Of a DNA stretch of 64,000 bases, positions 22,120 through 60,446 are shown one piece after another. The notes below the pieces were generated by a model. It worked only from the letters and a program-made list of their open reading frames with translations. It was not told the origin of the DNA and made no database searches. Position 1 is the stretch's first letter; each line of letters begins with the position of its first letter. Origin of the DNA: Terriglobales bacterium (lineage in GTDB: Bacteria > Acidobacteriota > Terriglobia > Terriglobales > Acidobacteriaceae); contig JAOAPE010000005.1 of NCBI GenBank assembly GCA_025462725.1, forward strand, positions 124,001-188,000, read 5' to 3'. The position numbers and the translations under genes were made by a program.

Positions 22120-22656
22120 ATGTTTCCTCGCCAGTCCGTTCCAGCACCCTCCCGCAACTCCTTTGTTTTGTCATTTTTACCTCTAAGTCCTTTGTTATGT
22201 CATTTCAATTACGGTGATGATTATAGGCAGCGATTTCTAGAGGCGGTCTGCGAGTTCGATTTCTTCCACCTGTCTTTCATTCTCAACCAAGCGAAGATTT
22301 ACGGACCCGGATTCTCCTATAAGGAACCGTTCTATAAGTTCACCGCCAAACTCCTGTTTGAGAATGCCAAGCCATATCTAAAAGAAGCTATCGTTATGAT
22401 TGATCGCAACGGTAATCGAGAATTTAGGATTCAATTAGAAAAGTATTTGAAGGGCAAAATGAACGGGGATCGAGAGACTATCAAGAAGGTTAAGACAGAA
22501 TCCTCTCATTCCAATAATCTCTTGCAGCTCGCGGACATGGTTGGTGGAGCTGTCGCAAGGTCTTATAGGACAGATAAGGAAAAGCCAATGGTTTTTCGGA
22601 GGATGGTTCGGAGGCGGGAGATGGGTGTGCAGGTATGGCCAAGAGGCCTAAAATAG
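22120..22656 (+). pseudogene. C-terminal half of a DUF3800 protein
   Basis: From about 22205 the frame encodes the second half of a DUF3800 domain: HFNYGDDYRQRFLEAVCEF, KIYGPGFSYKEPFYKF, LLFENAKPYLKEAIVMIDRNG with a conserved acidic residue, and the C-terminal HSNNLLQLADMVGGAVARSY and VQVWPR motifs. The first ~28 residues of the open frame are not DUF3800-like. The N-terminal half, with (Y)ESGD and GSSDLFVITAVVF, is missing here and lies 0.8 kb downstream. DUF3800 proteins have an RNase H-like fold and often travel with mobile or defence genes; their biochemical role is unsettled. Confidence 0.7.
22152..22207. repeat. Two imperfect direct repeats left of the scrambled DUF3800 gene
   Basis: TCCTTTGTT-T-TGTCATTT (about 22158-22176) and TCCTTTGTT-A-TGTCATTT (about 22189-22207) lie 31 bases apart. 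A third, more diverged relative (ACTCCTTATTTTTGTCAT) lies at about 23202-23220, just right of the segment. They flank the 22214-23184 element and may mark its ends. Confidence 0.55.
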
Positions 22657-23184
22657 CAAACCCGCTAACCTATCCCTTGCGGGCACGCACACCATACGGT
22701 GACAGTTCGGTCAGCGGGCAATTCCAGTTAGTATGATGCCTTGTTTGCCGTAGGGATGCAACGTATTTATTAGCGTAGTAATCAGCGTATGAATCGTCGT
22801 ATAAACATATCGTTGCTACCCCTGCACTAATTCCTGCACGTTATCCTAAAGTTCTGACAATACCCCCTACTACGAAGCTAATGATCACGTGCTAGCACGT
22901 TTCTGGCGCGTTTTCAGAGACGTAGCAATCTGTCGCTTTTTCCTGTCGCTAACAGTAAGATTCAAAGGGACTTTAACCTCTGGGTTTGCTTTGTACCCAA
23001 TTACGAATCAGGTGACAACGGGATGAAGAAGAAGGTCGGTTCATCCGACTTGTTTGTCATTACTGCCGTAGTTTTCGTAGACCACGATGATGCACAGGCT
23101 TGTGATGCGAAGATTTGCGAGATCCGCCAAAAATGCTTCCGAAACGATACGACCGAGTTTCACTTTAACAAGTGCTGTGATGAT
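22214..23184 (+). mobile_element. 963-bp segment bounded by 8-bp repeats, permuting DUF3800
   Basis: GTGATGAT occurs at 22214-22221 and 23177-23184. Each copy sits at the same codons (Asp-Asp) of the same protein, at the start of the C-terminal half and at the end of the N-terminal half. Joining the right end to the left end across this repeat gives ...FHFNKCCDDYRQRFLEAV... in frame, an uninterrupted DUF3800 sequence. The segment contains no recombinase. Whether it is a real circularising unit or the remains of two eroded copies cannot be decided from one sequence. Confidence 0.5.
22657..23022. other. Intergenic region of the DUF3800 segment with iteron-like repeats
   Basis: No credible gene is seen in these 366 bases. 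They contain three adjacent 12-bp repeats (22772-22807: AGCGTAGTAATC, AGCGTATGAATC, GTCGTATAAACA) and a perfect 14-bp palindrome ACGTGCTAGCACGT (22887-22900), and end with AGGTGA and CGGG before ATG 23023. The A/T-rich iteron-like array would fit an operator or a replication or recombination site. Confidence 0.6.
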
Positions 23185-32744: not shown

Positions 32745-34025
32745 CTAGTCCTGCAGGGTGCCGTGTGCGGCAACCATTGCTGCCGGAGCGGGCACGTGTC
32801 CGCCGGTCTTGATGTCCAGCATGCGGTTCAGCGCGACCCTGGCCCAATGTTTAACGTCTTTCTCAACTTTGATGCGATTGACGACGTTTCCATCCACTAA
32901 GTTTTCGAGCGCCCAGCACAAATGCTGCGGCGAGATGCGGAACATAGTGGTGCATAGACATCCGGAATCGTCGAGAGTAATGACCATTTTGTCCTGGTCG
33001 GCAAACTGTTTGCCAAGACGATTCACCAAGTGAATCTCAGTTCCGACTGCGAACTTCGTTCCACGCGGAGCTTTTTCGATGACTTGGATCAGGCGCTCGG
33101 TCGAGCCGATGGCGTCAGCCTTTTGGCAGACCTCCCAACGACATTCCGGATGCACGACGACCTGAATCCCGGGATGACGGGCGCGAACTTTGTCCACGTG
33201 CTCCGGCAAGAACCGTTGATGAACGGAGCAATGGCCCTTCCACAAGATCAGTTTGGCTTTGCGCAGACGGTCAGGAGTGTTGCCTCCCATGATGAGGAAC
33301 GGGTCCCAAACGACCATATCCGACATGGGTACGCCCATAGCGAAAGCGGTGTTTCGTCCTAAGTGTTGGTCGGGCAAAAAGAGCAGCTTCGGAGATTTCG
33401 CAAATCCCCAATCGAAAGCTCCGGGCGCATTCGAGGATGTGCAAACGACTCCGCCGCGCTCCCCGCAAAATGCTTTGATCGCGGCCGTGGAATTCATGTA
33501 GGTGATGGGAGTGATGCCTTCGCCGGCTTCGTCGGTCAAGCCAAGCTTCACCAACTGCTCCCAGCAGTCTTCCACCTGGCCGATCTCAGCCATGTCAGCC
33601 ATGGAGCATCCGGCATTCAAATCTGGGAGGATCACGTTCTGAAAATCATTGCCGAGCACGTCAGCGCTTTCAGCCATGAAATGCACGCCACAAAAAATGA
33701 TGTGATCGGCTTTGCTCTGGGAAGAGATCTTGGCGAGTTTATAGCTGTCGCCGGTAAAGTCAGCGAAACGGATCACTTCATCGCGTTGGTAGTGATGCCC
33801 AAGAATCACGGCCGTAGAGCCGAGCTTGGCGCGCGCCGCAGCAATGCGGGCATCCATGGTTTGGTCCGGGAGAACCAAATAGTTCTCAAGCGGACATATC
33901 TCTGTCGCAGCAGCAGTAGTCACTTTGTCTTCCGCCTTCAGCTTCGGACCATCTGTTGATGTCCCGAAACGGGGATGTTGAAAGCATTTTGCCCGGCTCC
34001 AGTGGTTCCACTGCGCATGAAACAC
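32745..34025 (-). CDS. nadA: Quinolinate synthase A
   Basis: Condenses iminoaspartate with dihydroxyacetone phosphate to quinolinate for NAD synthesis, using a 4Fe-4S cluster. The three cluster cysteines are recognisable in NAGCSMADM, GGVVCTSSNAPGA and DDSGCLCTT. The substrate motifs GHHYQRDEV, HFMAESA, TYMNSTA and HPECRWEVC are intact. The first ~35 residues from ATG 34025 are unlike NadA; a GTG at 33923 preceded by GGCGGA would give 392 residues and may be the true start. nadB and nadC are not adjacent. Confidence 0.95.
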   Translation of the reverse strand: MFHAQWNHWSRAKCFQHPRFGTSTDGPKLKAEDKVTTAAATEICPLENYLVLPDQTMDARIAAARAKLGSTAVILGHHYQRDEVIRFADFTGDSYKLAKISSQSKADHIIFCGVHFMAESADVLGNDFQNVILPDLNAGCSMADMAEIGQVEDCWEQLVKLGLTDEAGEGITPITYMNSTAAIKAFCGERGGVVCTSSNAPGAFDWGFAKSPKLLFLPDQHLGRNTAFAMGVPMSDMVVWDPFLIMGGNTPDRLRKAKLILWKGHCSVHQRFLPEHVDKVRARHPGIQVVVHPECRWEVCQKADAIGSTERLIQVIEKAPRGTKFAVGTEIHLVNRLGKQFADQDKMVITLDDSGCLCTTMFRISPQHLCWALENLVDGNVVNRIKVEKDVKHWARVALNRMLDIKTGGHVPAPAAMVAAHGTLQD

Positions 34026-34266
34026 CGATCATTCCTGATCGGTCGCGCCCGAACCACGGGGTTGTTGAAGCCGTCTCTTAATACATACGATGTTTTGCCA
34101 GCGGATAAGACTCACAATAGATGAGCCCTGCCAGACGACACCGTAAAACTATTGTTACACCTGTAGAACACACGTGCAACAGAATTGATGCAAAGCCGCC
34201 ATGTCACCGGGTGCGCCTGATTGTTTGCACCGAATGGGATGATAGTGCAATCTATAGCCCACGATC

Positions 34267-35226
34267 ATGGACCACAATCTTCAATTCGTTGCACATCACG
34301 GATACTCCGTCCTGTTTCTTTGGGTGTTGGCCGAACAATCTGGATTGCCGATTCCCTCGCTGCCGATCCTGTTAGCTACGGGAGCGATGGCGGCGAGCGG
34401 CGAGTTGAGTTTCTCTTTGACGCTGGCGATCGCTCTGGTCGCGACGCTTATTGCCGATATGGGATGGTACGAACTGGGGCGTCACAAAGGGATGAAAGTG
34501 TTGAACTTCCTTTGCAAAATGTCACTCGAACCAGACTCTTGCGTGCGACAGACGGAGTTGGCATTTTCCAAACAGGGGCTTCGATCACTGCTGATCGCAA
34601 AATTTATTCCCGGGTTAAGCACCGCGGCTCCGCCGTTGGCAGGTATTTTCGGATTGTCTCGATGGCGCTTTCTCCTCTATGACGCGATAGGCACGCTTGC
34701 ATGGGCGGGGCTGTTCATTGGATTGGGCGCGGCGTTCAACAAACAGATCAAGGAGATAGAGCAAGCCATATCGCGCTTCGGAGCGTCGTTGCTGACAACT
34801 GCCATCGTGGCACTCGCGCTTTACTTAGGGTGGAAATTCATTAAGCGCGAAATGTTCATCCGCGAATTGCGGATTGCGCGCCTACAGCCAAGCGAACTGA
34901 AAGAAATGATGGATGCGGGCGAAGAGGTGGTCGTACTTGATCTGCGGCATCCCGTGGAATTTGAAGCTGACCCTTACTCGATCGTTGGCGCTTTGCGGAT
35001 CTCTCCGGAGGAACTCGCGACCCGGCACGACCTGATCCCACGCGACCGCGATGTGATTCTCTACTGCACTTGACCAAACGAAGCGACCAGCGCCCGTGTG
35101 GCGCTGCAACTGAAGAAGCGTGGGATCAAGAGCGTGCGTCCGCTTGCAGGTGGGCTCGCCGCTTGGCGAGTATTGAATTATCCGGTGCAAGCTCCAGCGC
35201 TGGTCAACATTACTACGGCAAAGTGA
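34267..35226 (+). CDS. DedA membrane protein fused to rhodanese, with in-frame TGA (candidate selenoprotein)
   Basis: Residues 1-205 are a DedA/SNARE-associated membrane protein (EQSGLPIPSLPILLATGAMAASG, FIPGLSTAAPPLAG, about five helices). From about 215 a rhodanese domain begins (ELKEMMDAGEEVVVLDLRHPVEFEADPYSIVGALRISPEELA). The frame reads RDRDVILYCT, TGA (35071-35073), then PNEATSARVALQLKKRGIKSVRPLAGGLAAWRVL and stops at 35226. Related proteins read YC-x-CPNEAT, so TGA stands where the catalytic Cys is expected. Either it is decoded as selenocysteine (a SECIS-like hairpin follows), or the gene is truncated at 268 residues with a dead rhodanese domain. Confidence 0.8.
35088..35106 (+). promoter_or_regulatory. 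SECIS-like hairpin after the in-frame TGA
   Basis: CAGCGCC (35088-35094) and GGCGCTG (35100-35106) form a perfect 7-bp stem with loop CGTGT. The loop G (35096) is the second loop base and is separated from the TGA by 22 bases. The published bacterial SECIS model asks for a stem, a small apical loop with G in its first two positions and a loop distance of roughly 16-37 bases. The stem is also coding sequence, as bacterial SECIS elements are. Confidence 0.5.
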
Positions 35227-35228
35227 AG

Positions 35229-35255
35229 GACGACGGCGGCGCGTCGTCTCTCTTA
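35229..35255 (+). terminator. Terminator after the DedA-rhodanese gene
   Basis: GACGACG and CGTCGTC form a 7-bp stem with a 6-base loop followed by TCTCTT. It starts 3 bases after the stop that ends the TGA-read-through frame, not after the TGA, which supports the longer frame as the transcribed unit. Confidence 0.65.
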
Positions 35256-60173: not shown

Positions 60174-60446
60174 GGTCTTATTCCTTTTCGGAGGAGTGAA
60201 CAAGGCATCACCAGAATACTCCGACTGCTTTGTTAGACTGAATCATTGCGGAAGCGAATGGGATCCGGTGATCCTCACGGTCTTCAAAACCGTCGGGAGG
60301 CAGGCTCGTCTTGTCTTCGGTGTGTTCGACTCGCACACGCTTCCGCCAACTTCCTTCAGTTAGTCAGCGACGAACTTTCCTCTTGGCCTACAATTAAGAT
60401 AGAAACCTGACTGAATCCGGATCCGCGCCCCAGGAGTCCAATCACC

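Follow-up and report, generated by a model that had tools for sequence, protein, structure and literature searches.

Structure of the DedA/VTT-rhodanese gene

The window analysed here is a 64,000-nucleotide stretch of a Terriglobales genome (phylum Acidobacteriota, contig JAOAPE010000005.1). On its forward strand, positions 34267-35226 hold the coding sequence of a putative DedA/VTT-rhodanese selenoprotein of 319 residues, counting a selenocysteine (Sec) at residue 269, with the stop codon at 35224-35226. The VTT (DedA) membrane domain (Pfam PF09335, 51.5 bits, cut-off 33.9) occupies residues 29-155 (34351-34731) and is followed by a rhodanese domain (PF00581, 43.2 bits, cut-off 22.2), also matched by rhodaneses in the PDB, at residues 208-301 (34888-35169). 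The Pfam rhodanese match extends across an in-frame TGA at 35071-35073 (codon 269), which stands in register with the rhodanese catalytic cysteine and would be read as Sec269; it is followed by 50 sense codons and the final stop, again TGA. We confirmed from the sequence the frame described in the initial annotation, with its TGA at 35071 and its continuation to 35226; a mechanical listing of open reading frames terminates it at residue 268. A bacterial SECIS-type hairpin (35088-35106) lies between the two TGA codons, and 3' of the final stop an apparent second hairpin is visible by eye at about 35230-35249. The codons of Cys83 (34513-34515), Cys92 (34540-34542) and Cys267 (35065-35067), the last being the C of a C-x-U motif, are kept in 114, 113 and 115 of 115 fusion proteins, respectively.

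Codon 269 in related genomes

We searched 100 genomes, the organism's own and 99 relatives, and obtained matches in all of them, DedA and rhodanese domains being common. As listed, the genomes divide into 44 in which a long match contains an in-frame TGA, 23 with TGA-free long matches only and 33 without such a fusion. Across 123 loci, the window's own gene included, codon 269 is TGA in 48, TGC or TGT in 74 (a form that may be over-sampled, one contig scan having been queried with a single peptide with Cys at the site) and TCT (Ser) in one, so that Trp or Gly never occurs in the 75 non-TGA loci. The TGA loci span all 44 TGA genomes, and among the 23 Cys-only genomes, 21 were classed by reading the codon itself and the remaining two (G046 and G049) by stop count. 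The initial annotation had called for a comparison of TGA with TGC/TGT at this codon and had predicted that Cys-type relatives would read YC-x-CPNEAT; apart from the one Ser, they mostly read YCTCPNEAT or near it (YCT-C-P(N/S)EA), with the Cys at exactly codon 269. Stem counts, tree and residue conservation are based on 115 full-length genes, a set from which eight partial loci (L085, L089-L093, L124 and L125; one TGA and seven Cys codons) were left out, and the Ser gene was excluded from the 67 Cys genes. The 14 newly fetched TGA genes (L138-L151, four from one genus) all have the TGA at the same codon. In a sample of 396 genomes of the phylum, own genome included and with no more than five candidates per genome scored, 71 gave a match at E 1e-40 and 30, by row count, a TGA-bearing match.

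The TGA genes share 32-80% identity with the window gene, and in the 47 full-length ones the frame stays open for 35-68 sense codons past the TGA, the shortest being L054, which has a further stop early. Over the 40 codons past the TGA, five pairs of TGA genes gave a dN of 0.03-0.18, a dS of 0.37-1.05 and a dN/dS of 0.09-0.23, a constraint about equal to that of the rhodanese part before the TGA. The alternative offered in the initial annotation, a recent loss of the rhodanese function, is at odds with the retention of the frame in such divergent genes and a dN well below dS. A sequencing error at the TGA is excluded in practice by the 47 other TGA loci.

A conserved SECIS-type hairpin follows the TGA

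Bacterial SECIS elements are hairpins downstream of the UGA whose loop has a G as its first or second base, at a distance of 16-37 nt. The minimum free energy structure in the window (-12.5 kcal/mol) is the perfect 7-bp stem that had been noted initially (35088-35094 paired with 35100-35106), with the loop CGUGU (35095-35099), the G of which, at 35096, lies 22 nt past the TGA and so within the bacterial range. By itself, this hairpin does not exceed what GC-rich DNA of this kind would form by chance (z = -0.97 and -1.24; 32 and 24 of 200 shuffled sequences folded equally well), and its significance comes only from comparison with the relatives. Folding energy, being equal to that of shuffles, was dropped as evidence for the hairpin; the energy z-scores against synonymous codons were modest (median -0.87 in TGA genes and -0.16 in Cys genes).

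The five inner pairs (35090-35094/35100-35104) are all formed in 45 of the 47 TGA genes versus 6 of the 67 Cys genes and, when G at loop position 2 is included, in 45 versus 3 (Fisher p 1.4e-25). After synonymous redrawing of codons, the 5-bp stem was retained in a mean of 3.0 and a maximum of 11 of the 47 genes. RNAalifold recovered the very same helix from the TGA genes (-8.8) and next to nothing from the Cys genes (-0.1), and in genes held out from the definition of the stem, both stem and loop G were intact in 14/14 TGA and 0/3 Cys genes. The lack of a conserved hairpin, which the initial annotation had named as evidence against selenocysteine, is therefore not what the relatives display. 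In three related TGA genes (L106, L109, L123), the central G-C pair is replaced by A-U through changes on both sides that replace one Ala by Thr and another by Val, and in this clade the two residues seem to have been changed to preserve the RNA stem; in L144, a different pair, C-G, became U-A through two silent changes. This covariation is thin, consisting of one event common to relatives and of isolated ones, and two of the five pairs never vary.

Exceptions occur on both sides. The TGA genes L018 and L095 each miss one of the five pairs, and six Cys genes retain all of them. Of the latter, three are placed as recent Sec-to-Cys changes would be: the gene nearest to L055, as to L059, is a Sec gene at close distance, and the one second nearest to L044 is also Sec. 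The nearest gene to L052 is a distant Sec gene, and L127 and L129 lie among Cys genes. A covariance model built from 43 TGA genes, the window's own included, recovered its own site by construction (E 1.2e-15 in the window, 8.3e-14 in the genome) and no second strong site in either, the next matches having E 0.23 and 0.95 (150 of 3250 genome candidates scored). Held-out TGA genes scored 30.6 to 61.9 bits, the lowest of them (L145) below some Cys/Ser loci. This model, which scores sequence too, was rejected as a classifier of TGA and Cys genes, since 8 of 48 Cys or Ser loci reached E < 1e-5 at the site (best 36.6 bits).

Distribution of the Sec and Cys forms and of the Sec machinery

A quick maximum-likelihood tree of the 115 proteins, built with the site masked, implied that Sec and Cys were exchanged an estimated 14 times, with eight or more of these events forced by well-supported branches, against 36-37 for shuffled labels; these counts do not give direction. 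The proteins fall into two deep clades: clade A, with PNEATSA, PSEATSA and the like, contains the window gene, and clade B, with mostly xREATSA, has Sec in 24 of 25 members, its single Cys member (L118) coming from G059, a genome with no detected selB. The Ser gene (L134, G043:C13) is a fusion paralogue with a longer C-terminus on a long branch.

The search for selA, selB, selD and selC proposed in the initial annotation found all four in the organism's own genome. Matches exceeded the cut-offs for selB (400.4 bits, cut-off 242), selA (535.9, cut-off 268) and selD (363.5, cut-off 125), which itself has an in-frame TGA, and selC, the tRNA-Sec with UCA anticodon, lies inside the window on the forward strand at 60250-60348 (ARAGORN; Rfam RF01852, 65.6 bits, cut-off 47). 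The second-best Rfam tRNA-Sec match in the genome is barely over the cut-off (47.8 bits), and the same model passes in 5 of 14 control genomes. At E 1e-60, selB was detected in 39 of the 44 genomes with TGA and in 7 of the 23 with Cys only (Fisher p 2e-6). The five TGA genomes in which it was not detected at this threshold (G004, G027, G032, G039 and G040, of which G032 is 96% complete) all have selA over the cut-off, a gene that passed in none of 12 tested among the 16 Cys-only selB-negative genomes. The seven Cys-only genomes that retain selB would fit a loss of Sec at the DedA-rhodanese gene only. One genome (G079) has two selB matches over the cut-off.

The rhodanese active site

The site reads Y-C267-T-U269-P-N-E-A-T. 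When the family profile is aligned to the rhodanese structure 6mxv, residue 269 falls, without a gap, on the Cys of the CGGGFR loop, and it likewise falls on the loop Cys of the second domain of 1yt8. In this register, Sec would occupy the catalytic place and C267, two positions ahead, would be an additional Cys that never varies, in support of the initial assignment of the TGA to the catalytic Cys, although in the predicted structure (pLDDT 85 overall and 69-70 between residues 81 and 100) residue 266 is the last of the strand, C267 comes directly after it and the helix starts at 270, right after U269, so that C267 would be the catalytic Cys if counted from the strand of this model. Both residues are strongly conserved, C267 in 115/115 and Sec or Cys at 269 in 114/115. 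The classical rhodanese active loop is CxxGxR, the Gly and Arg of which are missing from UPNEAT. Sequence matches to solved structures lie in the C-terminal domain and mostly bear the names of rhodaneses or rhodanese fusions. So do most of the 50 listed Foldseek matches (of 324 in all), none of these 50 being named DedA.

The membrane domain

Two Arg of the second re-entrant helix, R130 and R136 in YghB of E. coli K-12, are described as essential in COG0586 DedA proteins in the available text of PMC10127716. The fusion protein has the VTT/DedA domain of COG0586, at the score given above, and does not have the two Arg: the position of R130 is K112 in 115/115 proteins, and the equivalent of R136 (residue 118) is never Arg in the 115, whereas both Arg are present in YghB and in ten acidobacterial DedAs of the ordinary kind. 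The UptA model gave 69.8 bits against a cut-off of 250. The pair C83/C92, conversely, is absent at the aligned positions of the ten ordinary DedAs and of YghB. Its exceptions within the family are L086, with an unread base there, and L131, with Ala at 92. Five relatives that match in the DedA part only have both Cys (two), His at both places (two) or Cys and Leu (one), while L231 gave no alignment in this comparison. Given the His pairs, C83/C92 may as possibly form a metal site as a thiol relay.

Genomic neighbourhood and other candidate Sec rhodaneses

Gene neighbourhoods were compared in 39 fetched regions and a stretch of the window, and no partner emerged. In clade A, to which the window gene belongs, neighbour families are found in at most 3 of 21 regions; the clusters of three are confined to a genus or consist of what we take to be a glycogen-phosphorylase-like and a large TonB/Oar-like protein, and others occur in two. 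In the more divergent clade B, five neighbour gene families, presumably metG-, CYTH-, TatD-, polyprenyl-synthase- and YajQ-like, are each found in 9-11 of 19 regions. Elsewhere in the window, two tandem nadA riboswitch matches (RF03013) on the reverse strand (33934-34072) overlap the 5' end of a nadA-like ORF (32745-34025, reverse strand), and a DUF3800-IX RNA (RF02968, 64.7 bits) was matched at 22656-22719, also in reverse.

Further rhodaneses with an in-frame TGA came to light. The organism's own genome has a second one (L194, G000:C40:213069-213377; Pfam rhodanese 61.2 bits), reading ...VVYCASPHUHASENAAREL..., with the TGA five residues after the Cys of YC. Five related genomes (G084, G076, G090, G073 and G063) hold rhodaneses with VTYCWGHD-TGA-(Q/P)LSAK(A/V)ALQL (L195-L199), two of which (L195, L196) have a hairpin of the type TCTGC-AGTTG-GCAGA after the TGA; this C-x4-U form is a candidate for a further selenoprotein family absent from the table in PMC13188914. 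Stand-alone CxU rhodaneses with TGA were also seen (L200-L207), near the NCBIfam model NF041203 but under its cut-off, one of them (L205) with a GCACC/GGTGC version of the stem. In L208 (G019:C7:377032-378943, TGA at 1511), an Na+/H+ exchanger domain (PF00999, 127.9 bits) is fused to a CxU rhodanese with the same type of SECIS (E 3e-13), and the Sec rhodanese thus appears to be attached to another transporter type as well.

Relation to known families

The best NCBIfam match of the window protein is NF041203 (rhodanese_LYCAU, rhodanese-related (seleno)protein; 87.3 bits, residues 201-308), the common feature being a rhodanese domain with C-x-U. The protein nevertheless stays below the curated cut-off of 115, and the model, of 126 positions, has no membrane part, whereas our protein has DedA/VTT fused in front; the representative of NF041203 is TKB26178.1. 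A match over 115 was found in 0 of the 100 genomes. TsoA and TsoB, a further point of comparison, were reportedly defined by Haft and Tolstoy in 2025. TsoB (NF045694), entered in the table of PMC13188914 as rhodanese/DsbD fusion-like, is also a rhodanese-containing fusion selenoprotein but has UxxxxU with two Sec, and the window protein reaches only 11.3 bits against its cut-off of 805. The YeeE/YedE thiosulfate transporter selenoprotein (GUxSG), judged by its catalogue entry alone (PMC13188914, Table 1), is also a Sec-containing membrane transporter of sulfur compounds, yet it belongs to another Pfam family (PF04143) with another Sec motif and is thus an analogy, not a relative.

The same architecture with Cys instead of Sec exists in fusions of COG0586 and PF00581 from Pseudomonas aeruginosa (PA1209), Dyella and betaproteobacterial MAGs. 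Cys homologues from Dyella and other Pseudomonadota align over nearly the full length with 37-45% identity, and none of them is among the six Cys genes that retain the five-pair stem; PA1209 is named as a DedA-rhodanese fusion in the accessible part of PMC12893004. In the consulted text of PMC10127716, the connection of the rhodanese domain to undecaprenyl phosphate (UndP) is called unclear, and the only occurrence of "selen" in the available portions of these two papers on DedA fusions is a cited title on selenite.

The 2026 review (PMC13188914), in its accessible sections, lists 119 prokaryotic selenoprotein families with five rhodanese forms, NF041203 being "rhodanese form 3, CxU" of Table 1, and its 119-family table contains no DedA/VTT fusion. 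Rhodanese selenoproteins, including the CxU form of COG0607, are named in the available parts of PMC1088965 and PMC9312934, the latter of which makes no mention of DedA there; the accessible text of PMC1794560 was also consulted. Neither rhodanese nor DedA nor VTT occurs in the main text on deep-Sep (PMC12013277), and the listings obtained from open-licence literature on selenoproteins, rhodanese, DedA and Acidobacteria show no report of a Sec form of the DedA-rhodanese. The CxU rhodanese selenoprotein domain is thus already known, and its union with DedA in the Sec form is absent from the catalogue as far as its table goes (PMC13188914). Gene calling with UGA as stop cuts the protein at residue 268, and the gene is therefore probably annotated as a DedA with a broken end.

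Decoding of the UGA

SelB binds such hairpins and inserts Sec. In the mechanism we propose, the cell's own SelA, SelB, SelC and SelD would decode the UGA at 35071 as Sec, directed by the hairpin at 35088-35106, and the product would be a membrane-anchored selenoprotein with a DedA/VTT domain followed by a rhodanese with Sec as catalytic residue. On comparative grounds, we regard it as near certain that this UGA is decoded as selenocysteine in a functional protein. A truncating mutation, in which the TGA is a real stop and leaves a DedA protein without a complete rhodanese, would agree with the mechanical reading of the frame up to residue 268, but is hardly credible for a TGA that recurs at one and the same codon in 48 of 123 loci and is accompanied by a retained downstream frame, purifying selection past it, a hairpin nearly specific to the TGA genes and co-occurring Sec machinery. 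Readthrough or recoding of the UGA as Trp, Gly or Cys without selenium would account for a frame that must be translated somehow, Cys filling the column in the non-TGA homologues; it is just as improbable, given that Trp and Gly are never found at the 75 non-TGA loci, that UGA also terminates the DedA-rhodanese gene itself and that the downstream hairpin and the link to selA/selB fit Sec. Judged from the sequences, the gene looks like a member of an unlisted selenoprotein family common to dozens of related bacteria and not like a broken gene.

Possible function

What the selenoprotein does can be proposed only tentatively. Membrane-coupled sulfane-sulfur or selenium chemistry is a quite possible function, and, with a similar degree of reserve, Sec269 and its partner C267 might take up and pass on sulfane sulfur (as persulfide or perselenide) or reduce a chalcogen or disulfide substrate. 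The DedA part, with its own C83/C92 pair and without the second of the Arg described as essential for UndP flippases, would then be the transporting or membrane-bound partner, with a different substrate. A thiol peroxidase or disulfide reductase that uses the C267-U269 pair for no sulfur transfer is a somewhat weaker candidate: it would suit the near-invariance of both residues, a loop without the Gly and Arg of the classical rhodanese motif and the expectation, expressed in the available text of PMC13188914, that most uncharacterized selenoproteins are redox enzymes, but the structural matches of the C-terminal domain, as well as most of the 50 fold matches listed of 324, bear the names of rhodaneses or rhodanese fusions. 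COG0586 DedAs are regarded as UndP flippases, some with rhodanese fusions, in the accessible text of PMC10127716, and a redox-regulated flippase with the Sec rhodanese as sensor would make use of the DedA/VTT domain; we consider this unlikely, as K112 and the non-Arg residue 118 stand where essential Arg are reported, both are retained by YghB and by the ten DedAs of ordinary type from acidobacteria, and the UptA score is far below its cut-off.

Extending the proposed chalcogen chemistry of Sec269 and C267 to the whole protein, one could envisage a new family of selenoproteins that join a membrane domain of transporter type (DedA and, once, an Na+/H+ exchanger) to a Sec rhodanese. The two would form a membrane-coupled chalcogen relay, running from C83/C92 to C267/U269, by which sulfur or selenium species are moved or detoxified, an idea about which we remain rather doubtful. 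If true, the relay would be a selenium-dependent, transport-coupled sulfurtransferase and, going by the 119-family table (PMC13188914), the first selenoprotein in the DedA/VTT superfamily. The swaps of Sec and Cys on the tree provide natural matched pairs for testing what Sec confers. Furthermore, the finding adds a DedA/VTT-rhodanese form to the selenoproteome, one that is widespread in the phylum, with a TGA-bearing match in 30 of 396 genomes, and the Sec form offers a handle on DedA-rhodanese fusions, the purpose of which is unexplained.
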